Source of the DNA: Thalassotalea ponticola
Lineage (GTDB): Bacteria; Pseudomonadota; Gammaproteobacteria; Enterobacterales; Alteromonadaceae
Length of the DNA: 64,000 nucleotides
Direction: 5' to 3'
NCBI RefSeq assembly: GCF_041379045.1
Contig: NZ_CP166871.1
Span: forward strand, 2,170,001 to 2,234,000
Position numbers and translations under genes: made by a program. Shown in pieces: positions 23,871 to 56,416 of this stretch (its first letter is position 1; the number at the start of each line of letters is the position of its first letter). A model generated the notes under the pieces. That model searched no databases. It was not told the DNA's origin and saw only the letters and a program-made list of their open reading frames with translations.

Positions 23871-25166
23871 ATGGCTGAGAATAAAGCCACTCTGAGCATT
23901 AATGGCAAAGAGGTTGCTGAACTACCCATCCTATCAGGTACTGCAGGAAACGATGTTATCGACATTCGTACACTAGGTAGCGCTGGCTATTTTACCTACG
24001 ACCCTGGCTTCCTAGCAACAGCGTCTTGTGAATCAGAGATCACCTTCATCGACGGCGCCAAAGGTGTATTACAACACCGCGGTTACGCTATTGATGATTT
24101 GGCAAAAAACGCTGACTACTTAGAAACGTGTTACATTTTGTTGAACGGTCAGGCGCCGACGCAAGAGCAATACGACGAGTTTGTTAACGTTATCACCAAC
24201 CACACCATGGTACACGAAAAGTTAGTTAACTTTTTCCGTGGATTCCTACACAACGCGCACCCAATGGCGATGGTATGTGGTGTCGTTGGCGCATTATCGT
24301 CATTTTATCACTCAGACCTAGATATCAATGACCCAGCTCAACGCAAGCGTTGTGCACATCGTTTAATCGCGAAAATGCCGACCATTGCCGCTATGGCGTA
24401 CAAATACAGCTTAGGTCAACCGTTCGTATACCCGCGCAACGACCTTTCGTACTCTGAAAACTTCTTACACATGATGTTTTCTGTACCTGCTGAAGAATAC
24501 AAAGTGAACCCTATCCTTGCTAAGGCAATGGATCGCATCTTTATTCTTCACGCTGACCACGAGCAAAATGCATCAACGTCAACCGTTCGTTTAGCGGGTT
24601 CATCTGGTGCTAACCCATACGCGTGTATCGCTGCTGGTGTTGCGTCGTTATGGGGGCCTGCACACGGTGGTGCCAACGAAGCGTGTTTAAACATGTTAGA
24701 AGAGATTGGCGACGTAAGCCGCGTTGACGAATTCGTTGCTCGCGCTAAAGACAAAAACGACCCGTTCCGTCTAATGGGCTTTGGCCACCGCGTTTACAAG
24801 AACTTCGACCCGCGCGCAACGGTTATGCGTGAAACCTGTCATGAAGTTCTCAACGAGCTAGGCATCAAAGATCCACTACTAGATGTGGCTATGGCACTTG
24901 AAAAAGTGGCGCTTGAAGACCCGTACTTCATCGAGAAGAAACTTTACCCTAACGTAGACTTCTACTCAGGTATTATTCTTAAAGCCATCGGTATTCCGAC
25001 CAATATGTTTACCGTTATCTTTGCCCTATCTCGCACCGTTGGTTGGTGTGCACACTGGGATGAGATGTTAAGTCAGCCAGGACAAAAAATCGGTCGTCCT
25101 CGTCAAAACTACACCGGTGAGTTGAACAAAGAGTTCACGCCGTTAAAGCATCACGACAAAGATTAA
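23871..25166 (+). CDS. gltA: Citrate synthase (type II)
   Basis: 431 residues from [19 protein letters not shown]. The start at 23871 is fixed by AGGAAG 6 bases upstream. Family motifs and catalytic residues are visible: [39 protein letters not shown] and VDFYSGI with the catalytic Asp. It condenses acetyl-CoA and oxaloacetate in the cytosol. The length and motifs match the hexameric, NADH-sensitive type II enzymes of gamma-proteobacteria. It is monocistronic, with its own terminator. Confidence 0.98.
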
Positions 25167-25453: not shown

Positions 25454-26524
25454 GTGACTGATGCAGATAAACCGACCATACTCGTTGTCGATGACGAGCC
25501 GGCTAATATCGACTTAGCCGCTGCTCTACTAAAAGATAAGTATCACGTCAAAGCGGCTACACACGGTAAAGTGGCGATAAAAATTGCCCAGTCAAACCCG
25601 CACATCAGTCTCATTTTACTTGATATTATGATGCCAGATATGGACGGCTACCAAGTGTGTGAACAGCTCAAAGCCGATGCTCAAACCCAAGCTATACCAA
25701 TTATCTTCCTCACTGCTCGCGCTGACATTGCAGACATCACCCGAGGTTTTCATTTAGGTGCTGTTGATTACATTACCAAACCATTACAACCCGACGTATT
25801 GCAAGCGCGGGTAAAAACCCATATCACCTTGCGACAAAGCCAACTGGCACTTGAAAATCAAGTTGAGACACTGAACGAAAATATACGTCTTCGAGAGGAT
25901 ATTGAAAACCTAACCAAGCACGACTTAAAAGGGCCGCTTGGCGTGGTGTTATTCGAAACGGCAAAGCTCGAAGACCGGGCCATAGCAGAGTCCATTGAAG
26001 AGTCGGTGAACAACGTGATTAACATGCTCAATAACACCCTCGATGTATTTAAAATTGAGCAAGGTCGTTACCCGTTTTCCCCCGATATGGTGGATTTGAC
26101 AAGATTAGTGGACAAGGCGATTAAATCGGTGTCGCGCTTGGCGAATAAAAAGGCGATTTCATTCGACGTAAACACCGACCGCAAGCCCACATATATCGAT
26201 GCAGAAGAGTTGCTGTGTTTATCCATTTTTAATAATTTGATCAAAAATGCGGTCGAGGCTTCGCCTGATCACCATTCAATCCAGATCGACATCATAGAGC
26301 AAGATGAGTGGGTTGAGTTTCGGATAAAAAACACAGGCGTTATCCCCACTCAATTGCGCCCCACCCTATTTGATAAGTACGCCTCATCGAATCATCAACG
26401 AGGATCCGGGCTCGGTGCGTATTCGGCTAAACTGATGACCGAGGCGCAAAATGGGCGTATTGAATTTCGTATCATCGATGAAACCTTCACCGAGTTTAGG
26501 GTACAGTTACCCGCCTACAAATAA
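25454..26524 (+). CDS. Receiver domain fused to a histidine-kinase-like module
   Basis: 356 residues. Residues 7-125 form a response-regulator receiver with D13/D14, phospho-acceptor D57 (LLDIMMPDMDG), T87 and K109 (DYITKP). A coiled linker (about 125-150) leads to a dimerisation/phospho-acceptor helix with H156 in LTKHDLKGPL and then an HATPase domain: N-box NNLIKNAVEA, G-box GSGLGAYSAKLM. The receiver-first order is that of sensory proteins lacking a periplasmic input domain. The start is GTG at 25454 with only a weak upstream AAGG. No partner gene is adjacent. It lies at the distal border of the integron array and reads toward it. Confidence 0.85.
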   Translation: MTDADKPTILVVDDEPANIDLAAALLKDKYHVKAATHGKVAIKIAQSNPHISLILLDIMMPDMDGYQVCEQLKADAQTQAIPIIFLTARADIADITRGFHLGAVDYITKPLQPDVLQARVKTHITLRQSQLALENQVETLNENIRLREDIENLTKHDLKGPLGVVLFETAKLEDRAIAESIEESVNNVINMLNNTLDVFKIEQGRYPFSPDMVDLTRLVDKAIKSVSRLANKKAISFDVNTDRKPTYIDAEELLCLSIFNNLIKNAVEASPDHHSIQIDIIEQDEWVEFRIKNTGVIPTQLRPTLFDKYASSNHQRGSGLGAYSAKLMTEAQNGRIEFRIIDETFTEFRVQLPAYK

Positions 26525-26583
26525 GCGACATTTACAAAGCAGACGTCGTGTTACGCCTTAATCAGCCAACGCTTTACATTAAT
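26525..26583 (-). repeat. Possible degenerate terminal attC site
   Basis: Just after the metallo-beta-lactamase stop, read leftward: GTAACAAATTAAT, a short spacer, then ATTAAGGCGTAAC. The AAC...TTAAT/ATTAA...GGCG layout recalls the other attC sites of this array. However, the R' core GTTA is replaced by GTAA and the central arm is missing. It could be an attC remnant or chance. Confidence 0.35.
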
Positions 26584-27298
26584 TTGTTACAGCTGATTTG
26601 GCGAGGTCTATCGTATGATCTAAGATATCAGCCTGACCAACCGTGCCGTGCCCCGGAACCACCATGTTAATGTCGTAATTTTTCGCTTTAATGTTTTCAA
26701 TTGAATCAGCCCAAGAAATAATTGAGGCATCACCCACGTAACCCAAGCTTTCCCATTCATGGCTTCTCACTATGCAGCCACCAAAAAGTATTTTGCTTTT
26801 AGGTAGCCATGCGATGATGTTGTCCTCGGTATGGCCCGCGCCCGGATAGTAAAGTTCAACAAGACCATTTCCTAATGAAAACTCACTACCGTTAAAAGTA
26901 TGAGTTGGAATGGGTTTTCCGCCCTGAACAAGAAGCTCCTTAGTTAATTCAGATGTGTAAGTTTGAATCAACCGTGAATTCAGTAGCTTGATCCCAGCAG
27001 TGCGGTCCGCGTGTGAGTGAGTAGAAATGCTGGCCTTAGCCTGATAACCATTATCCGCAATCCAAGTCAGCAGAGTTTCTGTGTCATCTTCTGACCAAGG
27101 CGTATCAATAATATAAGCTTGATTGGCATCTACAACGATTAACCCATTCGAATCAACTAGCCCATAGCCTTCGATGTTTTTGAAGGAAGTATGAAGATAT
27201 ACCCCCTCAGCTATCTCACTAATTTTCAACGACGTATCTTTTTGCGCCATAGCTGGTAATGCCATAATGGTGACGATAAATGTTAATATAAATTTCAT
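26579..27298 (-). CDS. Subclass B1 metallo-beta-lactamase, integron cassette
   Basis: 239 residues with a signal peptide (MKFILTFIVTIMALPAMA). All six B1 zinc ligands are present: H94, H96 and D98 in STHSHADRTAGI, H156 in YPGAGHTEDN, C175 in LFGGCIVRS, and H217 in VPGHGTVG. Segments such as NSRLIQTYTSELTKELL and LPKSKILFGGC read very like IMP-type enzymes. R178 lies where IMP has Lys224 and VIM has Tyr. The IMP Asn233 position appears to be Tyr. Family enzymes hydrolyse penicillins, cephalosporins and carbapenems in the periplasm; activity here is not shown. The ATG lies 14 bases after attC site 27312-27412, the normal position of a cassette gene. Confidence 0.88.
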   Translation of the reverse strand: MKFILTFIVTIMALPAMAQKDTSLKISEIAEGVYLHTSFKNIEGYGLVDSNGLIVVDANQAYIIDTPWSEDDTETLLTWIADNGYQAKASISTHSHADRTAGIKLLNSRLIQTYTSELTKELLVQGGKPIPTHTFNGSEFSLGNGLVELYYPGAGHTEDNIIAWLPKSKILFGGCIVRSHEWESLGYVGDASIISWADSIENIKAKNYDINMVVPGHGTVGQADILDHTIDLAKSAVTN

Positions 27299-27311: not shown

Positions 27312-27412
27312 TTCTAACACCTCATTAAGAGGTAATTTTTAGTTAGCCATAATGTTCAACGCAGTAGAAAACAGCCAACTGTAAATTTACTTGCTTTAAT
27401 GACTTGTTGTGT
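27312..27412 (-). repeat. attC site of the 27413-28042 cassette
   Basis: Read leftward: ACACAAC core, then AAGTCATTAA, a palindrome-like centre, TTAATGAGGTGTTAG. The AACA and ATTAA arms pair with TTAAT and GTGTT with the usual asymmetry. Length is about 101 bases. Confidence 0.85.
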
Positions 27413-28042
27413 TTACATGATCACCACTGGTATATTCCAGTTTGTTTGATCGCTACCTCCAATCCCTTGATATTTTGCATCGTCATCAACACCTTTAACT
27501 ATGCTTGATGTATCAATATTTGGATGTTTTTTAGAAAATATATCGAGATCAATTTCAGACTGGTCACTATAGTTGACCTGTACCCCTGTAACAGTAAGCC
27601 CCAAACTATCAGTTTCAATAAAGTCAAAGTTACCTAAATATGTTGCTTTGCCTGACTCTATTTGAAACTCAATTGAGATAGGATTTACAGGCTTTATATG
27701 TGCATAACCACTATGGACTCCCCACCGCCATACTTTGTAATTCCCGGCTGGTAATTCAACTGCAAAAACCTCTCCTTTACGGTTTAAATGAGAGAAGTCA
27801 CCTTTAGGAGGAATTGGGAGTAAAGCAACCCCTTCACCAAATTGAATTTGCCCGCGAACATCATTATTTAATCCATGATAAAAAAATGAATAGCCAGCAT
27901 AGCTTCCTTTATAACTAACCGAAGAAATTAATACACCATTACCAGACTTTTGGTTAAGCGCATAATCACTCTTAATAGTTTTAGTTGAAGCACACCCGGT
28001 TAAAACTAGAGACATTAAAATTAGGCTAAATAATTTCTTCAT
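27413..28042 (-). CDS. Cassette-encoded lipoprotein, unknown function
   Basis: 209 residues from MKKLFSLILMSLVLTGCAST, with a clear lipobox (LTGC). The start at 28042 is preferred because the longer frame (28081) would run into the upstream attC site. The mature part is beta-rich: GNGVLISSVSYKGSYAGYSFFYHGL, then VFAVELPAGNYKVWRWG, a motif common in small DUF2846-like lipoproteins with a P-A-G-x-Y turn. No catalytic residues are recognised. It is bounded by attC sites on both sides, so it is a complete cassette. Probable envelope location; role unknown. Confidence 0.75.
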   Translation of the reverse strand: MKKLFSLILMSLVLTGCASTKTIKSDYALNQKSGNGVLISSVSYKGSYAGYSFFYHGLNNDVRGQIQFGEGVALLPIPPKGDFSHLNRKGEVFAVELPAGNYKVWRWGVHSGYAHIKPVNPISIEFQIESGKATYLGNFDFIETDSLGLTVTGVQVNYSDQSEIDLDIFSKKHPNIDTSSIVKGVDDDAKYQGIGGSDQTNWNIPVVIM

Positions 28043-28063
28043 ATAAACTCTACTTGATTGTAA

Positions 28064-28167
28064 ACATAACGCCTTGCTCAAGAACGCATAACTGCTTGGC
28101 TAAAATTAGCCAAAAAATGAGAGCCAGCCAAGCTGTAAGGCGTCCATTATTAAACAGCTTGTTAAGC
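28064..28167 (-). repeat. attC site of the 28172-28963 cassette
   Basis: Read leftward: GCTTAAC core, AAGCTGTTTAAT, then long central arms (CAGCTTGGCT ... AGCCAAGCAG), ending GAGCAAGGCGTTATGT. The length (about 104) and the GGCGTTATG end are VCR-like. Confidence 0.88.
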
Positions 28168-28171
28168 GCAT

Positions 28172-28963
28172 TTAGCACGGAACTAGCGCCCCAGCATGCC
28201 CAACTGCTGATAATAACCCATTAATTATTTTTGTAGTGACTCTAGCTTTATTAAAAACGATATCGCAGAGTATTGCGAAAACAACCATTAAATAAACAAC
28301 GAAGCCTAAACCTGTGTAATTACTATACAGGACTGTATAGAACCAATTCTGCTCAAATAAGTAAAAATAGGAGCAGATTACGGTAGAAATGAATAGCAAT
28401 GTACTTGGCAAAAATAAGTGGTTTACTGCTCTTGGCTTAAAGAACGAAGCCATGAAAAAGACAATAAAAACCAGAGAATTTGTACCAAGGAAAATTCTTA
28501 CATCAAGTGTAAGCTTGTGCACAATTTCCATATATTTTGTTTGAGTAAATTGAGCTAGCTTACTCTTTGCCTCCTCGACAGATTCAATTCGTGAAAGTAG
28601 AGACTTAGTAAGTCTTTCTTTCCATTTCTGCCTGCACTCACAATCTAAGTTGCGCACTTCAGCTATACGCTTAGCGATAATAGCAGGTGCATCGTTTTTC
28701 AATTGTTGTTTGTAAAATTCTAGCTCTTTCTTTGCTTCCGAATGAAGCGCTGTGGCTCCTTCTCCGAGTACTTTTTCCAGAGAAGTATTTTTAGGAATAT
28801 TAACGGAATCTATCTTTTCAAAGACTTCTTGCTTCACTCGCCATTCGATAAATGATTTTCCTGATTTCTCGACTAACTGCGGATCAGCGAACGTAAATAG
28901 GAATAATGGCAAAAATAGTAGAATGCCAAAAAGTCCAAATCCTCTTAATGTACGAGTTTTCAC
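28172..28963 (-). CDS. Cassette-encoded membrane protein, unknown function
   Basis: 263 residues. There is an N-terminal membrane anchor or signal (GLFGILLFLPLFLFTFA), a charged helical region of about 120 residues with coiled-coil character (SLEKVLGEGATALHSEAKKELEFYKQQL), a CxC pair in NLDCECRQKW, then about four membrane segments from residue 150 to 240. The stop codon lies 5 bases before the attC core. No family is recognised. It is shared as one unit with the small lipoprotein gene upstream, because the attC between them is incomplete. Confidence 0.65.
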   Translation of the reverse strand: MKTRTLRGFGLFGILLFLPLFLFTFADPQLVEKSGKSFIEWRVKQEVFEKIDSVNIPKNTSLEKVLGEGATALHSEAKKELEFYKQQLKNDAPAIIAKRIAEVRNLDCECRQKWKERLTKSLLSRIESVEEAKSKLAQFTQTKYMEIVHKLTLDVRIFLGTNSLVFIVFFMASFFKPRAVNHLFLPSTLLFISTVICSYFYLFEQNWFYTVLYSNYTGLGFVVYLMVVFAILCDIVFNKARVTTKIINGLLSAVGHAGALVPC

Positions 28964-29020
28964 TTCACTTCCTTATGTGCTTAATGCGCTTGTTATATAT
29001 ACACTGTAAAATAATTTAAG
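28964..29020 (-). repeat. Truncated attC (R''/L'' half only)
   Basis: Only 57 bases separate two cassette ORFs. Read leftward, ATATAACAAGCGCATTAAG resembles the left half of the neighbouring attC sites, but no matching GGCGTTA half follows before the next ATG. The site is probably dead, fusing two cassettes. Confidence 0.55.
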
Positions 29021-29266
29021 CTACTTTTTAATAACGCAATTATTTTTAATTTTCCCTTCTGAATCAATACATATATTTTTGTCTTTCTTTACGCAATCAT
29101 ACTCAGGATCCTGTGTAACTGCATTTAGACCACCCAAAATAACGGCTGTTAAAGCATCAGAACTTCCTTCCGCTCCTTCTACAACATTACAACTGTGTTG
29201 CTCAAAGTTGTTGGAGCTACATGCAGATAAAAATAAACTGATGAAAAATAGATATCGAGTGTGCAC
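29021..29266 (-). CDS. Cassette-encoded small lipoprotein, unknown function
   Basis: 81 residues with a lipoprotein signal (MHTRYLFFISLFLSACSS). The mature part is short with four Cys (HSCNVVE, YDCVKKDKNICID, NNCVIKK), suggesting disulfides. A GLNAV stretch lies in the middle. The start at 29266 is only about 20 bases from the IS1111-type element, which separates it from any promoter in the attI region. Expression may therefore depend on the IS or be lost. No family is recognised. Confidence 0.6.
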   Translation of the reverse strand: MHTRYLFFISLFLSACSSNNFEQHSCNVVEGAEGSSDALTAVILGGLNAVTQDPEYDCVKKDKNICIDSEGKIKNNCVIKK

Positions 29267-29384
29267 TACTATGCCTTCTATGTATAGACATAATGACTCC
29301 CCACGAGGTGCTAGCCTCCAATCGTGGGTTAGCTTAAAGCCAGAGCCATAATTAGTTTGTTAAATAACTAAAGCGGAGGCTAGC

Positions 29385-30539
29385 ATGAATAAACATAACA
29401 TACTTTTCATAGGGTTAGATACTCATAAAGAATTTTCTCAAGTCGCACTACTTGAAGATGGGCGTGGTGTGAAAGCTGTTAATTACGGCAAAATAAAAAG
29501 CACCAAACAATCCTTTATTAAACTCGCTAGAACACTTCAATCAAAATACCCAAGCGCAACACTTCATTTTGTTTATGAAGCAGGTCCCTGTGGCTATTGG
29601 GTTTATCGGTTATTAACAAGCCTTGGACACTGTTGTTATGTGGTAGCCCCTTCTCTCATTCCCAAAAAACCTGGCGAGCGAATTAAAACCGATAAACGCG
29701 ATGCACTGAAATTAGCTAAATTACTCAAAGATGAAGAGCTAACCGCTATCTATGTGCCTGAACCAGATGATGAAGCTATCCGCGACTTATCTCGCGCAAG
29801 AGACCGCGCTATGAACGATTTAAAAGATGCCAAATATCAACTTAAGGCGTTGTTTCTGCGCAATCATATTCAATGCAAGGTTAATGATAATTGGAGCAAT
29901 CAACACTTACGTTGGTTAACCGAATTGGTTCTGCCTCACCCGAGTCAGCAAATCGTCCTAACAGAATACATTGGCACCATTACTGAACGCTTAAAGCGAC
30001 TACAGAGGCTAGATAACGAATTGCACAATCAAATCAAAAACTGGCGCTTCTATCCTGTAGTAAAAGCCATTCAAGCTATGCGAGGTATTCGCATTGTTGC
30101 CGCCACTGGGATCATTGTTGAGCTTGGCGACTTACGCCGCTTTGATCATCCACGAAAATTAATGGCCTACTTAGGTCTTGTTCCATCAGAGCATACCAGC
30201 AGCGACAAGCGAAAACTTGGTAGCATTACCAAAGCTGGAAACATCCGCGCAAGGCGCTTATTGGTGGAATGCGCGCATTCCTATAAACACAAACCAAACG
30301 TATCGACAGAGCTTAAAAAACGGCAAGAATCCATCAGTAAAGAAGTTAATGATATCGCTTGGCAAGCTCAATTACGTTTATGCCGTCGATACCAACGATT
30401 GATGGCAAGAGGCAAACACCGAAGTGTGGTGGTAACGGCTATCGCCAGAGAGCTGATTGCTTATATTTGGGCAATATCTAGGGAAGTCGCCGTAGCGCCA
30501 GTAAAACCTGAACTGCGTATTTCTAGGGTTCCGGCATGA
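29385..30539 (+). CDS. IS110/IS1111-type DEDD transposase
   Basis: 384 residues. The N-terminal RuvC-like DEDD domain shows D12 (FIGLDTHKE), E65 (FVYEAGPCGYW), and D103/D106 (RIKTDKRDALKLAKLL). The C-terminal Transposase_20 domain has IQAMRGIRIVAATGIIVELGDLRRF and PRKLMAYLGLVPSEHTSS with the conserved Ser. These enzymes move DNA by a Holliday-junction-like, RNA-guided or site-specific route, with no DDE chemistry. AGCGGAGG lies just before the ATG. The frame is intact, so the element may be active. Confidence 0.95.
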   Translation: MNKHNILFIGLDTHKEFSQVALLEDGRGVKAVNYGKIKSTKQSFIKLARTLQSKYPSATLHFVYEAGPCGYWVYRLLTSLGHCCYVVAPSLIPKKPGERIKTDKRDALKLAKLLKDEELTAIYVPEPDDEAIRDLSRARDRAMNDLKDAKYQLKALFLRNHIQCKVNDNWSNQHLRWLTELVLPHPSQQIVLTEYIGTITERLKRLQRLDNELHNQIKNWRFYPVVKAIQAMRGIRIVAATGIIVELGDLRRFDHPRKLMAYLGLVPSEHTSSDKRKLGSITKAGNIRARRLLVECAHSYKHKPNVSTELKKRQESISKEVNDIAWQAQLRLCRRYQRLMARGKHRSVVVTAIARELIAYIWAISREVAVAPVKPELRISRVPA

Positions 30540-30833
30540 TAGAAAGATTTGAGATAGCACATTGGATCAAGCATCGGCTGTGGCACAACTCCCGAGGGCG
30601 TTAGGCTGGCAGGGTTAAGTCATTAACCTTGAACCGCGAACATAGACTGAAGCACGGTGCCACGACGAAACAAGTAAGGTAGGCTCTGTTAATCAACAGA
30701 TTAATAATCCACGAATACCAGCAAGATAACCGACGAAATTACTGGCTTCATTCAATGTGTTAACTCATTTATTTGAAAGTAAATAAGCAATGGCGTGAAA
30801 ATAAATGCTAGGGATCAGTGTGATTTTTCTTGA
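30540..30833 (+). ncRNA. Right-end non-coding region of the IS110-type element
   Basis: 294 bases without an ORF follow the transposase stop inside the element. In IS110-type elements a non-coding end can encode a structured guide RNA that pairs with target and donor DNA (bridge RNA); IS1111-group members carry it downstream of the transposase. The position and length fit. I have not derived a fold, so the call is by location. Confidence 0.4.
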
Positions 30834-30845
30834 CGTGGGGAGTCA

Positions 30846-30917
30846 TACCAACGCCGCGCTCTGCGGCAAATTTGGAGCGCAGCGGAAAATTTGTCCGACA
30901 GCAGCGCCTTGTTAGCC
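30846..30917 (-). repeat. attC site of the 30912-31502 cassette, abutted by the IS
   Basis: Read leftward: GGCTAACAAGGCGCTGC, arms around AAATTTTCC...GGAAAATTT-like centre, then GCAGAGCGCGGCGTTGG. About 72 bases. The last bases of the R' core touch the IS inverted repeat. Confidence 0.88.
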
Positions 30918-31502
30918 ATAACTACTACCATCTGGAAATTCACGTCGGAAAACCTCAGCAAAGGAAGACTTGTGCCAAATTAACTTTCTAGCCAATAGCG
31001 GATTCCCATTCATTCTTTCAGGACTTAGAGTTCCTGATTTGTAGAGTCGCTTGTGCATTCTATATGCATATACCTCATCAATTTTGGGGTGAGATTGAGA
31101 TGTAATATGCTGATAGAAAATAAAATACGCTGGATTATCCAGCGAAATTTTACGAATCTCATTTAAAAAATCGCTATCCTCGTAGGATCCGTTTATTTTC
31201 TTCCCAAGGTAGCTATCTGAATACCTTTTTGTTCCATGCCAGCCACGTTTAAACCTAACTTCAATTCCTTCCTTTCTCGTCACCTCGCCAATTTTAATGA
31301 AAGGAGAACTATCATTTTTAAAACGATAAAAGTAAGTCCCAATGGCAGATGAAAGCCCTTCGTTAGTGAGAGCAGATAACACAGGATTGTTTTCGCCATT
31401 TAAAATGTCGTCGGGGGACGTAAGCAAGCAAGATATGACCTTCTCTTGACCTGAGCCTCTACCCGAGTCTGCATCATATTTTTTACATAAATAGCTGCTC
31501 AT
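30912..31502 (-). CDS. Cassette-encoded protein, unknown function
   Basis: 196 residues, soluble, no signal peptide. A central segment FYRFKNDSSPFIKIGEVTRKEGIEVRFKRGW recalls the Y-x-I-x ... IKIG-x-T ... R layout of GIY-YIG-type domains, but the catalytic set cannot be verified. The N-terminus has two Cys and a Gly/Ser stretch. AGGAAAAG lies before the ATG. The stop codon lies inside the attC core, as is common in cassettes. It is the second cassette from attI. No confident family. Confidence 0.6.
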   Translation of the reverse strand: MSSYLCKKYDADSGRGSGQEKVISCLLTSPDDILNGENNPVLSALTNEGLSSAIGTYFYRFKNDSSPFIKIGEVTRKEGIEVRFKRGWHGTKRYSDSYLGKKINGSYEDSDFLNEIRKISLDNPAYFIFYQHITSQSHPKIDEVYAYRMHKRLYKSGTLSPERMNGNPLLARKLIWHKSSFAEVFRREFPDGSSYG

Positions 31503-31515
31503 ACTTTTCCTGGTT

Positions 31516-31619
31516 GGCTAACGCCCTGTTAAGGGGCTGATCAATGTTTGGCTAAAATGTGAAGCGAAGCGAAACTGAGCCAAACTTTAGCAGTTCCGCA
31601 CTTAAACAGCTTGTTAGGT
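31516..31619 (-). repeat. attC site of the first cassette
   Basis: Read leftward: ACCTAACAAGCTGTTTAAG, arms AGTTTGGCTCAG ... TTAGCCAAAC, then CCCCTTAACAGGGCGTTAG. About 104 bases. The right end resembles the Vibrio cholerae repeat (CCCCTTAG...GGGCGTTA). Confidence 0.92.
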
Positions 31620-31630
31620 ATACTTTTGAC

Positions 31631-32002
31631 CTATTTCTTTTGTGAACGATATAACCATAAACCACCAAGCCATGACAAAAAAATTGGCAAAGGAAGCATA
31701 ATTAAAAAGTACCCTACGTTAATTTGAACTAGAAAATGACTAAGCCCAATAAGAACCCCCAAAAGAACCAAGTTTTTATTAGGCAAATTTACCTTGTTTG
31801 ATGATATTCTTGTTAATGCAAAGCCAATGTAGCCCAAAATATTCCAAACTAAAACATAGGTACAAAATAGAGTGAACAGGCTAAAACAACCTAAATGAAC
31901 ATCGCAGTTATCAAATCCGTAGATACTAATTAAATAAATACAAAATGCAGGTATGGATGAACATATAATAAATATGAAAAACCGTTTCAACTTACTCTCC
32001 AT
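31631..32002 (-). CDS. First cassette: small four-helix membrane protein
   Basis: 123 residues with about four hydrophobic segments (residues 8-27, 37-62, 77-95, 97-117) and a basic N- and C-terminus (MESKLKRFF, YRSQKK). Several Cys lie in the first loop (GFDNCDVHLGCFSLFTLFC). It directly follows the attI junction and so is the cassette most likely to be expressed from an integron promoter. No family recognised; inner-membrane location inferred. Confidence 0.65.
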   Translation of the reverse strand: MESKLKRFFIFIICSSIPAFCIYLISIYGFDNCDVHLGCFSLFTLFCTYVLVWNILGYIGFALTRISSNKVNLPNKNLVLLGVLIGLSHFLVQINVGYFLIMLPLPIFLSWLGGLWLYRSQKK

Positions 32003-32244: not shown

Positions 32245-33214
32245 ATGAAAACACGCTCACCGTTTTTGAACTCTATTGCTGATTACATGTTAAGTCGGCA
32301 TTATTCGCTTAGAACCGTTGAAACCTATTTAAAATGGATAAGTTCTTATATTCATTTTCATGATAAACGTCATCCTGCGTCAATGGGGAATAATGAAGTG
32401 ACGACTTACCTGGATCATATAGTACTCAAAGGTAATGTCTCACCTCGGACTCAAGCAACGGCATTGAATGCATTAGTCTTTCTATACAAACACATCATCA
32501 AAATGAACTTTCGTTAAATTTGGATTTTGTCCGATCTAAAAAGCAGCTCAAATTACCGGTTGTTATGACACCAGATGAAGTAAAGCAACTTATGAGTCAT
32601 TTATCCAAACGATACTACCTAATTGCAGGGTTAATGTACGGTAGTGGCTTGCGGGTCATGGAAGCTGTGCAACTTAGGGCAAAGGACATTGATTTTGACT
32701 ATAAATGTATTCAAGTCTGGAATGGAAAAGGCAATAGCATCGAATTGTTACACTAGCTAGTGAATTGATCCCATTACTTAGGAATCAAATTATGCAGGTG
32801 GAAGAGTATCTAAAGTTGGATTTACACAATGAGCAATATGCCGGTGTTTGGATGCCCAATGCATTAGCTCGCAAATACCCATCGGCCAACAAATCATTGG
32901 CTTGGCAATATTTATTCCCGTCTTATAAATTAAGTGGTGACCCAAAGACAGGCGAGATACGGCGTCATCACTTTCATCATACTTGTGTTAGAAAAGCGGT
33001 AAAAAAGGCGCTTAAGCAGACTAATATTACTAAGCTTATAACGCCTCATACCTTTCGCCATTCTTTTGCTACACACCTGTTACAAAGTGGGGCGGATATA
33101 AGAACTGTGCAAGCTCAGTTAGGTCATTCAGATGTTAAAACCACTCAGATTTACACTCATGTTTTACAGCAAGGCGCGAACGGTGTATTGAGCCCTTTGA
33201 GCAAAATTTTCTAG
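32245..33214 (+). pseudogene. intI: Integron integrase intI, two frameshifts
   Basis: Three consecutive open segments (32245-32517, 32520-32756, 32765-33214) together give a full IntI tyrosine recombinase of about 320 residues. The first break lies in the AAAA run near 32500-32503, where one extra A would restore the frame into ELSLNLDFVRSKKQ. The second lies near 32737-32745, where one base is missing before [12 protein letters not shown]. The catalytic parts remain readable: Arg in [35 protein letters not shown]. The IntI-specific insert (ALARKYPSA...WQYLFPS...RRHHFHHT) is also present. Cassette movement by this copy is presumably lost. Confidence 0.92.
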
Positions 33215-33239: not shown

Positions 33240-33710
33240 TTAGCCAATTTCGAGACGTTTTTCCATGACATACTGAGTCAGCACTTGACCGCGAATGTTT
33301 ACTGTTTGTTGCTTAACTTGGGTGAAGCCAAAGTGCTCAAAAAACGGTTTTGCGGTAATGCTTACATGAGAATATACACGCCGGATACCGTTGTGTTGCG
33401 CCGTTTTGAATATTTCGTTGATCAGCGCTTTGCCAATACCTTTGCCCTGATAATTGCAATGACAAAAAAAATGATCAATATATCCATTGTCTTGAATATC
33501 GGCATAGCCGACGAGTTGATCGTTTAACACGGCCACAAATGGATTAATCTCACTCATGCGTTTGTTCCATTGATGCGGGTCGTACTTTGCGGGAGCCCAA
33601 GCTTGAACCTGTGCTTCTGAGTAGTCTTTAATGTTCACATGTCGAATGGTATTGAAAAATATGGCTCTTAACGCCAACTCATCACCTTGTTGAAATCTTC
33701 TAATGCGCAT
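33240..33710 (-). CDS. GNAT family N-acetyltransferase
   Basis: 156 residues. The typical GNAT N-terminus is MRIRRFQQGDELALRAIFFNTIRHV, then VAVLNDQLVGYADIQDNGYIDHFFC. The acetyl-CoA loop is YQGKGIGKALINEIF (QGxGxG) and the C-terminal strand-helix HVSITAKPFFEHFGFTQV. The acceptor is unknown; the architecture matches YafP-like proteins. It ends 26 bases from the end of the broken intI and is convergent with it. It has no attC, so it is chromosomal and not a cassette. Confidence 0.9.
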   Translation of the reverse strand: MRIRRFQQGDELALRAIFFNTIRHVNIKDYSEAQVQAWAPAKYDPHQWNKRMSEINPFVAVLNDQLVGYADIQDNGYIDHFFCHCNYQGKGIGKALINEIFKTAQHNGIRRVYSHVSITAKPFFEHFGFTQVKQQTVNIRGQVLTQYVMEKRLEIG

Positions 33711-34012: not shown

Positions 34013-35092
34013 TTAGCGAAACGACAATCCCGGCTCGAGTGATTCAAAGTTTTCTTTTAACACTTGTTCACCCACGTTGTTGTTGTCTTTGTCGGTGATC
34101 AGCAAGTCGGTTTTACCGTCTCGCTCAACAAGCTTAAAGCGATAATCGCCATCAGCTAATGTTAACACTGGTTTGTCATCACCCCACATTGTCTGCCACA
34201 CGCTGTTGTCAGCTTGGGTGTATTGCACGTCGTAGATAAAATTTGATTCGTCTAAATCAGTTACCGTAAAGTTATACTGCTCAAAGAAACCCGGTAAATA
34301 CGTCCACAGTTGATCGCGTTTAAAATCAATCGATAATGCAGGCTCGCCGTTTGCCGTATCGGCAAGTGTGACAATTTGCATGTTGGCTCGGGCGATTGCA
34401 TCGTCGCGACGGTTTAATCGATACAAATAACCTAGCTCAGAGGTAACGCTATTTAACATTTCCATTTCAACGCGATTTTTCTCCAGCGCCGATAGCGTAG
34501 TGCTGGTACCTTGTTGATCTTGCTTAAAGTACTCGACGAGTTCAACATTTAAGCCGATACTGCGACCATGAGGTTTGGTGACCAACGAGTATGCAAAGCG
34601 CCATTTCTCGATCGATTCAACGTCTTTGAACGGTCCAATACCACTTTCTTGTTCGGTTGTGAACCAGCCCGACTCAAAGCGATTACCGTCATCAGATTGT
34701 TCAACAAATTCAACGTTCTCGTCCTTGGCAACATTTTTAATTGCGCTAACCACCACGGTTTTTAAATCGCGGTTATCATCTACCTTGTCATACCAAATTG
34801 CCGCACTTTTATCGAATTCATCAACGCGACTACCACTGGCTAGCGGTAACACTTGCGATGGCGCACGAATATCAAGGGCAGCGCCTATCACACCATCAGT
34901 TTGTTGTAGTTGCGGTATTTGATAGCGATTTGACTGAGCCGGTGGTGTCATACTTTCAGGTACGTTCAACTCAGCACTTGGTTTGATGTTGACGTAATCG
35001 AAGTCCCCTTTGGCTTGCTTGCGTGTTTCAACACTTGAACACGCACTCAGCGCTAAGCCTAGTAGAGAAATATAAAAAATTCGGCGTTCCAT
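34013..35092 (-). CDS. bamC: Outer-membrane assembly lipoprotein BamC
   Basis: 359 residues from MERRIFYISLLGLALSACSS, with a clear lipobox; E. coli BamC is 344. The unstructured N-terminal region (YVNIKPSAELNVPESMTPPAQSNRYQIP) is the part that contacts BamD in the family. Two helix-grip domains follow (RLNRRDDAIARANMQ... and FEQYNFTVTDLDESNF...). AGGAGTATTC precedes the ATG at 35092; the frame is open 55 codons further up but without a ribosome site. It is part of the BAM complex that folds barrels. In E. coli it follows dapA; here no dapA is present. Confidence 0.93.
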   Translation of the reverse strand: MERRIFYISLLGLALSACSSVETRKQAKGDFDYVNIKPSAELNVPESMTPPAQSNRYQIPQLQQTDGVIGAALDIRAPSQVLPLASGSRVDEFDKSAAIWYDKVDDNRDLKTVVVSAIKNVAKDENVEFVEQSDDGNRFESGWFTTEQESGIGPFKDVESIEKWRFAYSLVTKPHGRSIGLNVELVEYFKQDQQGTSTTLSALEKNRVEMEMLNSVTSELGYLYRLNRRDDAIARANMQIVTLADTANGEPALSIDFKRDQLWTYLPGFFEQYNFTVTDLDESNFIYDVQYTQADNSVWQTMWGDDKPVLTLADGDYRFKLVERDGKTDLLITDKDNNNVGEQVLKENFESLEPGLSFR

Positions 35093-35433
35093 GAATACTC
35101 CTGAGGGAAATGCCAATTTGTCATTCGAGGTCGCTGTCAGCCACCTGGGTAAACAAATAGGTTTTGTTGCTATTCGACTGAGCAACTGCTTGTTAGTTGC
35201 CTGTAACTCACTATTTATCATTGTTGTATCGGAGTTATGGCGATATTTATTGGTCATTAATGTTACTTGCCCTGTCTGTTAAACACAAGCACTCAAGTTT
35301 AAATGTGATGAAAATTTTAGTTCAATAAATAGGGACGATTAGATTCGTCTCTTGCCACCTACAAATTTGTGTAAAAAAGCAGTAAAATAAATCGATTAAC
35401 CGCATTTACAGCAAGTAATTTTGAGTAGCTTCT
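35093..35433. other. Divergent intergenic region bamC / gcvR
   Basis: 341 bases, A/T-rich, with promoters for both genes expected. This is where dapA lies in E. coli and many relatives; I find no dapA remnant in either strand. The rightward open frame 35091-35282 has no ribosome site or family and is rejected. Confidence 0.5.
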
Positions 35434-55907: not shown

Positions 55908-55984
55908 TGGCGGAGTGGACGGGACTCGAACCCGCGACCCCCGGCGTGACAGGCCGGTATTCTAACCAACTGAACTACCACTCC
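55908..55984 (-). tRNA. tRNA-Asp (GTC), copy 5 of the array
   Basis: 77 bases including the encoded CCA. It has acceptor GGAGTGG/CCACTCC, D-loop AGTTGGTTAGA, anticodon GTC in CCTGTCACG, and T-arm GGGTTCGAGTCCC. The sequence is identical to the other four. Confidence 0.97.
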
Positions 55985-56011
55985 GCATAGGAATCTTGCA
56001 AACTTATATCG

Positions 56012-56088
56012 TGGCGGAGTGGACGGGACTCGAACCCGCGACCCCCGGCGTGACAGGCCGGTATTCTAACCAACTGAACTACCACTCC
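56012..56088 (-). tRNA. tRNA-Asp (GTC), copy 4 of the array
   Basis: Identical 77-base tRNA-Asp with encoded CCA, separated from the next copy downstream by 27 bases. Confidence 0.97.
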
Positions 56089-56121
56089 GCATAGGATATA
56101 ATGCAAACTTTTGAAAATCGT

Positions 56122-56198
56122 TGGCGGAGTGGACGGGACTCGAACCCGCGACCCCCGGCGTGACAGGCCGGTATTCTAACCAACTGAACTACCACTCC
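56122..56198 (-). tRNA. tRNA-Asp (GTC), copy 3 of the array
   Basis: Identical 77-base tRNA-Asp with encoded CCA, separated from copy 4 by 33 bases. Confidence 0.97.
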
Positions 56199-56224
56199 GC
56201 ATAGGATTTTCATGTTTATATCGT

Positions 56225-56301
56225 TGGCGGAGTGGACGGGACTCGAACCCGCGACCCCCGGCGTGACAGGCCGGTATTCTAACCAACTGAACTACCACTC
56301 C
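56225..56301 (-). tRNA. tRNA-Asp (GTC), copy 2 of the array
   Basis: Identical 77-base tRNA-Asp with encoded CCA, separated from copy 3 by 26 bases. Its 5' flank (AAGT) differs from the GC that precedes the other copies. Confidence 0.97.
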
Positions 56302-56339
56302 ACTTAGGATATAAACGACAACAACACATCAAACAAGAT

Positions 56340-56416
56340 TGGCGGAGTGGACGGGACTCGAACCCGCGACCCCCGGCGTGACAGGCCGGTATTCTAACCA
56401 ACTGAACTACCACTCC
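56340..56416 (-). tRNA. tRNA-Asp (GTC), copy 1 (promoter-proximal)
   Basis: Identical 77-base tRNA-Asp with encoded CCA, first of the five and 42 bases from the -10 box. Confidence 0.97.

Follow-up and report, generated by a model that had tools for sequence, protein, structure and literature searches.

A GIM-like subclass B1 metallo-beta-lactamase gene, probably a stranded cassette, at the end of a decayed chromosomal integron of Thalassotalea ponticola

Introduction

The origins of the mobile subclass B1 carbapenemases are largely obscure. In excerpts of Berglund et al. 2017 (PMC5637372), GIM is placed in the proteobacterial B1 groups, and it is noted that no known mobile B1 gene had a close chromosomal match. 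The excerpted text on GIM-1 (PMC7855592) describes an enzyme that hydrolyzes all tested beta-lactams except aztreonam, that sits in class 1 integrons, and whose reports were confined to Germany by 2021. According to excerpts of a paper on DIM-1 (PMC4599830), R224 is common to GIM-1, DIM-1, and TMB-1, Y233 is common to GIM-1 and DIM-1, and W228 is a feature of GIM-1. Ghaly et al. 2021 (PMC8352920), also seen as excerpts, used attC structure to argue that a marine clade takes in most beta-lactamase cassettes (52.9%); the name GIM is absent from the main text in that form. Given this placement, genomes that carry such metallo-beta-lactamase (MBL) cassettes are to be expected. Here we describe a GIM-like gene in a stretch of 64 kb, referred to as the window, which belongs to a single 3.35 Mb contig of T. 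ponticola. The locus is undescribed in the titles and abstract beginnings of the open-licence papers searched.

Results

The gene encodes a GIM-like subclass B1 enzyme

The gene is an intact open reading frame of 239 codons.

26579..27298, minus strand: GIM-like subclass B1 metallo-beta-lactamase gene (MBL gene)

The 239-residue protein scores 259.6 bits with the NCBIfam equivalog model of subclass B1, for which the cut-off is 200, so the assignment is not due to chance. This bears out the intact subclass B1 enzyme of the original prediction, in which the strand was not stated. The best NCBIfam model is that of GIM, but its score of 431.4 bits is below the curated blaGIM cut-off of 525, and the gene is therefore called GIM-like and is not given as a GIM allele. 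The protein also exceeds the cut-off of the DIM/SIM/IMP group model NF012145 (302.3 bits versus 288).

All six of the zinc ligands that had been predicted are seen, as residues His-94, His-96, Asp-98, His-156, Cys-175, and His-217 (BBL 116, 118, 120, 196, 221, and 263), and the set H116-x-H118-x-D120, H196, C221, and H263 is kept in all 25 rows of alignment A1, which includes the MBL protein. The protein also carries R224, W228, and Y233, which are present in 24, 24, and 17 of these rows, respectively. The prediction had correctly equated Arg-178 with BBL 224 and placed a tyrosine (Tyr-187) at BBL 233. It had regarded these residues as unlike IMP; the fitting comparison is with GIM-1, to which the excerpts of PMC4599830 assign all three. 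At position 119 there is an alanine, shared only with homologue P0003 among the 25 rows; GIM-1 has a glutamate. The claimed signal peptide is plausible by the look of the N terminus, which aligns with that of GIM-1.

The AlphaFold model of the protein has a mean pLDDT of 88.6. It shows the alpha-beta/beta-alpha fold of B1 enzymes, and its best 15 matches in the Protein Data Bank are all GIM-1 (TM score of 0.84–0.89 by query length). The top matches in a sequence search of solved structures are likewise GIM-1. In a plasmid collection, 760 records match the protein, and among the best 30 of these the top three are GIM-1 at 74.6% amino acid identity, followed by TMB, KHM, DIM, and IMP at 45–51%. 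By sequence, the closest named enzyme is GIM-1, not IMP, and the environmental relative of a mobile carbapenemase that had been proposed is thus a relative of GIM-1. The MBL protein is 11 residues shorter than GIM-1 (250 residues), the loss being at the C terminus, and the missing tail falls outside the region aligned to the GIM-1 structures.

The MBL gene lies at the distal end of a decayed integron

Thalassotalea is a marine genus, and it is from the genus that the integron can be called marine, as the prediction had it. The genome holds two integrons. In the other one, the integrase frame (24053-25000) runs without stops across the whole model at 459 bits, and the cassettes follow from ~25 kb on. 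A covariance model (R1) was built only from 10 aligned attCs of this intact integron (stretches of 89–116 nt); it contains just 7 base pairs, and its score comes mostly from sequence. A script that scored arm complementarity had been tried as an attC finder, did not separate the array from background, and was replaced by the covariance model. When applied to the whole window at E values up to 1, R1 gave three hits, all on the minus strand within 27312-31620. The features of the locus are as follows.

25454..26524, plus strand: chromosomal response-regulator-like gene (named by eye), distal flank
26547..26592, minus strand: degenerate attC remnant that closes the MBL cassette on its 3' side; homologous to, but shorter than, the attC of GIM-1, without a fold, no model hit
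27312..27413, minus strand: attC that belongs to the preceding cassette and whose core makes the 5' border of the MBL cassette (R1, 70.3 bits, E 1.7e-10)
27413..28081, minus strand: cassette ORF that looks lipoprotein-like by eye; its TTG start as listed, which overlaps an attC, is probably too early
28064..28168, minus strand: attC (R1, 68.3 bits)
28172..28963, minus strand: cassette ORF, membrane-protein-like by eye
29021..29266, minus strand: cassette ORF, small lipoprotein-like by eye
29281..30855, plus strand: IS110-family insertion sequence with transposase at 29385-30539, inside the attC of the 30912-31502 cassette
30846..30917, borders approximate, minus strand: larger part of the attC interrupted by IS110 (by eye; missed by R1)
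30912..31502, minus strand: cassette ORF
31516..31620, minus strand: attC (R1, 83.8 bits)
31631..32002, minus strand: first cassette ORF, membrane-protein-like by eye
32263..33205, plus strand: integron integrase gene intI, broken into three pieces in different frames, with stops; pieces searched separately
33240..33710: gene for a GNAT acetyltransferase, with the broken intI on one side and bamC on the other
34013..35257, minus strand: chromosomal gene resembling BamC/NlpB, which flanks the integron on its integrase side (above the Pfam cut-off, below the NCBIfam BamC cut-off)

On its integrase side the MBL gene has five cassette ORFs, one IS110, and the broken intI, and the next gene outward is the chromosomal response-regulator-like gene. 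The MBL gene is the distal-most cassette, at the end of the array where the prediction had located it. The attCs of the array share a single orientation; R1 finds none after the cassette ORF at 29021..29266. No intact intI is present, and the pieces are 48–61% identical to the intact integrase of the other integron. The locus is a decayed chromosomal integron with the MBL gene as its last cassette. Elsewhere in the window there are five tandem tRNA-Asp (GTC) genes (55908-56416).

In the window array, two attC stretches show 88–89% identity to sites of the other integron, among them the one at 27312..27413 (88%), and both integrons carry an IS110 that is 99% identical. From these matches the two arrays of the genome appear to have shared material. 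Near-full copies of the IS110 are found at window positions 29281-30855, at G000:C1:26126-27699, and at G000:C1:3206646-3208217, where G000 is the host genome. All three adjoin an attC, two of which were found by the model and the window one by eye; the count refers to near-full copies, and a fourth, partial match (1709501-1709665) was left out. The element may be likened to the attC-targeting IS1111 elements cited in PMC11187229, as excerpted. A further attC cluster (L194; model hits) is situated near 3.2 Mb, and none of the integrase-family hits of the genome lies near it.

The MBL gene is probably a former cassette

The ATG of the MBL gene lies 13 bases past the preceding attC, whose end is a 7-base core. 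The prediction had put this distance at 14 bases; the attC itself is real. The 5' border of the cassette is thus at an attC core of the array. On the other side, the DNA 3' of the coding region aligns with the GIM-1 attC, is ~11 nt shorter, and differs in the core. Since only this remnant stands in place of a recognizable 3' attC, the gene is a former cassette. The GIM-1 attC (~56 nt) is itself shorter than the attCs of the host and scores just 17 bits in R1, so the missing R1 hit on the remnant by itself says little.

Single-stranded DNA folding was compared with that of shuffled sequences. The GIM-1 site folds far better than its shuffles (z = -3.50). For L032, where the DNA at the 3' end of a further GIM-like gene from a metagenome-assembled genome resembles an attC, z is -2.26, whereas the remnant folds no better than its shuffles (z = +0.53). 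Two model-found host-type attCs of the window array likewise do not surpass their shuffles (z = -0.07 and -0.86). For this reason folding was rejected as a general attC test, and only the comparison with short GIM-type sites is informative. As the remnant is shorter and no longer folds, the MBL gene is probably immobile. A sequence pattern for a GIM-type attC half was found in 0 of 20 genomes behind the named loci and in 2 of 369 genomes of the class; it misses even the L032 site, the genome of which is among the 20. The pattern is too strict for its silence to mean much, and no source taxon can be named from it.

Expression and activity

The MBL protein would be exported to the periplasm and would bind two zinc ions, one through H116/H118/H196 and the other through D120/C221/H263. 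Judged by its sequence, residues, and predicted fold, it should hydrolyze penicillins, cephalosporins, and carbapenems as GIM-1 does, and a beta-lactamase activity is accordingly attributed to it as a prediction. The gene may nevertheless be silent, since a promoter scan found 14 sites against 18.8 expected, no signal above chance. A captured cassette that is silent, or that is no longer active as a beta-lactamase, is a reading we consider rather unlikely. It would gain from the missing promoter signal, from the IS110 that separates the gene from the presumed integron promoter, from Ala-119, which is rare among the aligned proteins, and from the shortened C terminus. However, all ligands, the frame, and the predicted fold are intact, and the lost tail lies beyond the part that aligns to the GIM-1 structures.

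Homologues carry translated attC tails

The C-terminal tail of GIM-1 and of many homologues is translated attC. A protein search gave 506 hits, of which the best 120 were used, or 119 when the window's own protein is excluded. Tails were counted as attC-type when they agreed at 5 or more of 13 positions with a consensus drawn from these same homologues, and 42 of the 119 have one. They are most frequent among the closest relatives: 16 of 19 at similarity ranks 2–20, 4 of 9 at ranks 21–29, 11 of 31 at ranks 30–60, and 11 of 60 at ranks 61–120. Among shuffled tails, 210 of 23,800 reached the tail score. The cassette nature of the nearest metagenomic homologues is judged from these protein tails and not from their DNA. 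The MBL protein itself is without an attC-type tail, as are GIM-like genes in genome contigs of Reinekea, Gilvimarinus, and Psychrobium/alter-6D02. In viral contigs, 13 stretches matched the search pattern, none of which encodes a relative.

A tree of 37 rows, chosen from the 64 of an earlier tree and built without the tail columns, pairs the MBL protein with P0003 (99/97), and P0002, P0004, and P0007 join this pair next (99/95). All four are tailed; the MBL protein nests among GIM-like, cassette-tailed homologues. GIM-1 is placed elsewhere with P0006, which is 94% identical to it, and the 64-row tree agrees. Tail state does not cluster on the 37-row tree beyond chance (10 changes versus a shuffled mean of 10.2), and clusters weakly on the 64-row tree (20 and 31 of 500 shuffles as low). 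This counts against any finer story, and only the rank counts and the nesting are used here.

The split from GIM-1 is old

At the DNA level the MBL gene and GIM-1 are 72.2% identical over 236 codons (511 of 708 nucleotides), with 48, 28, and 121 differences at the first, second, and third codon positions. The estimated dN is 0.165, and dS is 2.7, which is saturated. These values point to strong purifying selection; they cover the path between the two genes, and neither date nor test selection since the MBL gene was stranded. They also make the split an old one, and with dS saturated the MBL copy is not the recent source of GIM-1. Because the gene and the attC remnant are still joined, the comparison suggests that the GIM lineage was already a cassette before the split. 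The G+C content (42.7% for the MBL gene, 40.8% for GIM-1, 44.4% for the window) was also compared, as had been proposed, and decides nothing.

GIM-type and VMB-type genes in the genus

At the limits used, a B1 gene is found in 6 of 15 genomes of the genus, and a GIM-type gene in 2 of 15. One GIM-like gene is that of T. fonticola (L181 8511-9254). It was taken for a non-integron gene until the model search found an attC cluster nearby, with three strong hits at L181 11522-13421 and weaker ones nearer the gene (E values of 0.14 and 0.37). The cluster beside this gene is eroded. A neighboring gene is presumably TatD-like.

The VMB-type genes of three genomes (G004, G005, and G008; L184, L185, and L186) have host-type attCs directly on both sides, with scores of 54 to 96 bits, and the one in G008 lies ~9 kb from an integrase frame. 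A gene in G009, for which the best model is VMB at just 282 bits, has no attC hit in the stretch searched. The T. ponticola genome contains a second B1 gene (L020, G000:C1:1174184-1174951) that is 70% identical to VMB-1, and the attC model has no hit in the 13 kb searched around it. Three loci enter the VMB-1 comparison that follows.

L055 7971-8808: VMB-1-type cassette
L056 1799-2640: VMB-1-type cassette
L196 3947-4785: VMB-1-type cassette

A genomic cassette of Alteromonadaceae bacterium Bs31 shows 95.0% identity over 839 nt to the VMB-1 cassette of the Vibrio plasmid pVb1796, and this match stops at the borders of the cassette. For a genomic cassette of Glaciecola sp. KUL10, identity to the plasmid cassette is 92.6% over 843 nt. 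Between the attCs of the plasmid cassette and of Bs31 it is 96.8% over 94 nt. These matches mark a likely source lineage of VMB-1. An origin of VMB-1 in Alteromonadaceae cassettes is not stated in the excerpts of PMC9604146 and PMC12238668 or in the titles and abstract beginnings searched.

The original prediction had suggested that the MBL gene represents an ancestral reservoir, in the sense that the host lineage was where the GIM-1 cassette was assembled and mobilized. The gene is chromosomal and GIM-like, its 61% relative in T. fonticola lies beyond the end of another attC cluster, and the marine attC clade of Ghaly et al., as excerpted (PMC8352920), holds 52.9% of beta-lactamase cassettes, all of which would suit this idea. 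It is nonetheless very improbable, because identity to GIM-1 is as low as 74.6% for the protein and 72% for the DNA with dS saturated, because P0006, so close to GIM-1, is elsewhere in the tree, because the GIM-1 attC that aligns with the remnant reaches just 17 bits with R1, and because 2 of 15 genomes of the genus have a GIM-type gene. Instead, the MBL copy looks like a recipient and a dead end, given its nesting among tailed homologues, the remnant of a short attC of the GIM-1 kind, the saturated dS, and the decay of both attC and intI. The reservoir idea fits the VMB-type cassettes of the genus and of Alteromonadaceae better than it fits the GIM-type gene.

No integron at the same site in eight related genomes

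Among the 15 genomes of the genus, that of T. ponticola included, the response-regulator-like gene is present in 14 and bamC in all 15. Of the 14 other genomes, eight have these flank genes within 5 kb of each other, and in G014 they are ~80 bp apart. The comparison of flanks that had been suggested covers these eight: none has an ORF of the window integron between the flank genes, none has an attC model hit there at E values up to 0.1, and the GNAT gene was not seen there either. The remaining six are uninformative, as their flank genes are distant from each other or on separate contigs, or one of the two is missing. That the B1 gene was inherited vertically on the chromosome, with an integron inserted beside it later and a cassette look that is coincidental, is very improbable, for although GIM-like genes without attC-type tails do exist in Reinekea, Gilvimarinus, and Psychrobium/alter-6D02, the cassette begins right at an attC core, the attC of GIM-1 can be aligned with the DNA on the 3' side, and the site holds no integron ORF or attC in any of the eight informative relatives.

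Discussion

We conclude, with a probability of about 0.8, that the MBL gene encodes a GIM-like B1 enzyme that arrived as an integron cassette and was later stranded. The cassette was probably captured from a circulating pool of GIM-like cassettes. IntI would have recombined it, as the gene with a short GIM-type attC, into the second chromosomal integron, between the response-regulator-like gene and bamC. The gene is now the distal-most cassette, its attC lacks one hairpin arm and the core, and the local intI is broken. With both of these decayed, the MBL gene now amounts to an ordinary gene of the chromosome.

With this locus a GIM-like gene has a chromosomal host that is defined, and the locus shows how a cassette can become frozen into a chromosome. 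Together with the VMB-type cassettes, it points to the integrons of Alteromonadales as a place to test directly for the source of mobile carbapenemases. In a broader scheme, to which we give even odds, mobile B1 carbapenemases repeatedly arise in, and are exchanged through, the sedentary chromosomal integrons of Thalassotalea, Colwelliaceae, and Alteromonadaceae, from which VMB-1 would have left as a whole cassette (95% including the attC), among which GIM-like cassettes would circulate, and in which the MBL gene would have been caught and frozen.

Comparison with known systems

The closest known system is GIM-1, a carbapenemase of class 1 integrons in Pseudomonas and Enterobacterales in Germany. 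The MBL protein shares with it the B1 fold, the ligands, and R224/W228/Y233, and the cassettes have a similar 5' start and homologous attCs. The proteins differ at about a quarter of their positions (74.6% identity), including position 119 (glutamate in GIM-1, alanine in the MBL protein). The attC of GIM-1 folds, its protein ends in a tail derived from attC, and it resides in a mobile integron, whereas the MBL gene is chromosomal, its attC is decayed, and the tail is gone.

DIM-1, TMB-1, and IMP belong to the same B1 branch and are integron cassettes, and DIM and TMB also have R224; they are only ~45–52% identical to the MBL protein and form separate clades. VMB-1 and the second MBL of the host are B1 enzymes as well, and VMB-type genes likewise occur as cassettes in integrons of the genus. 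In contrast to the MBL gene, the VMB-type cassettes have attCs that are host-type and intact, and the identity to the MBL protein is 42%. The GIM-like gene of T. fonticola comes from the same genus and, like the MBL gene, is associated with attC sites, being situated beyond one end of a cluster. It differs in its chromosomal site, in an amino acid identity of 61% to the MBL protein, and in that it is without an attC-type tail.
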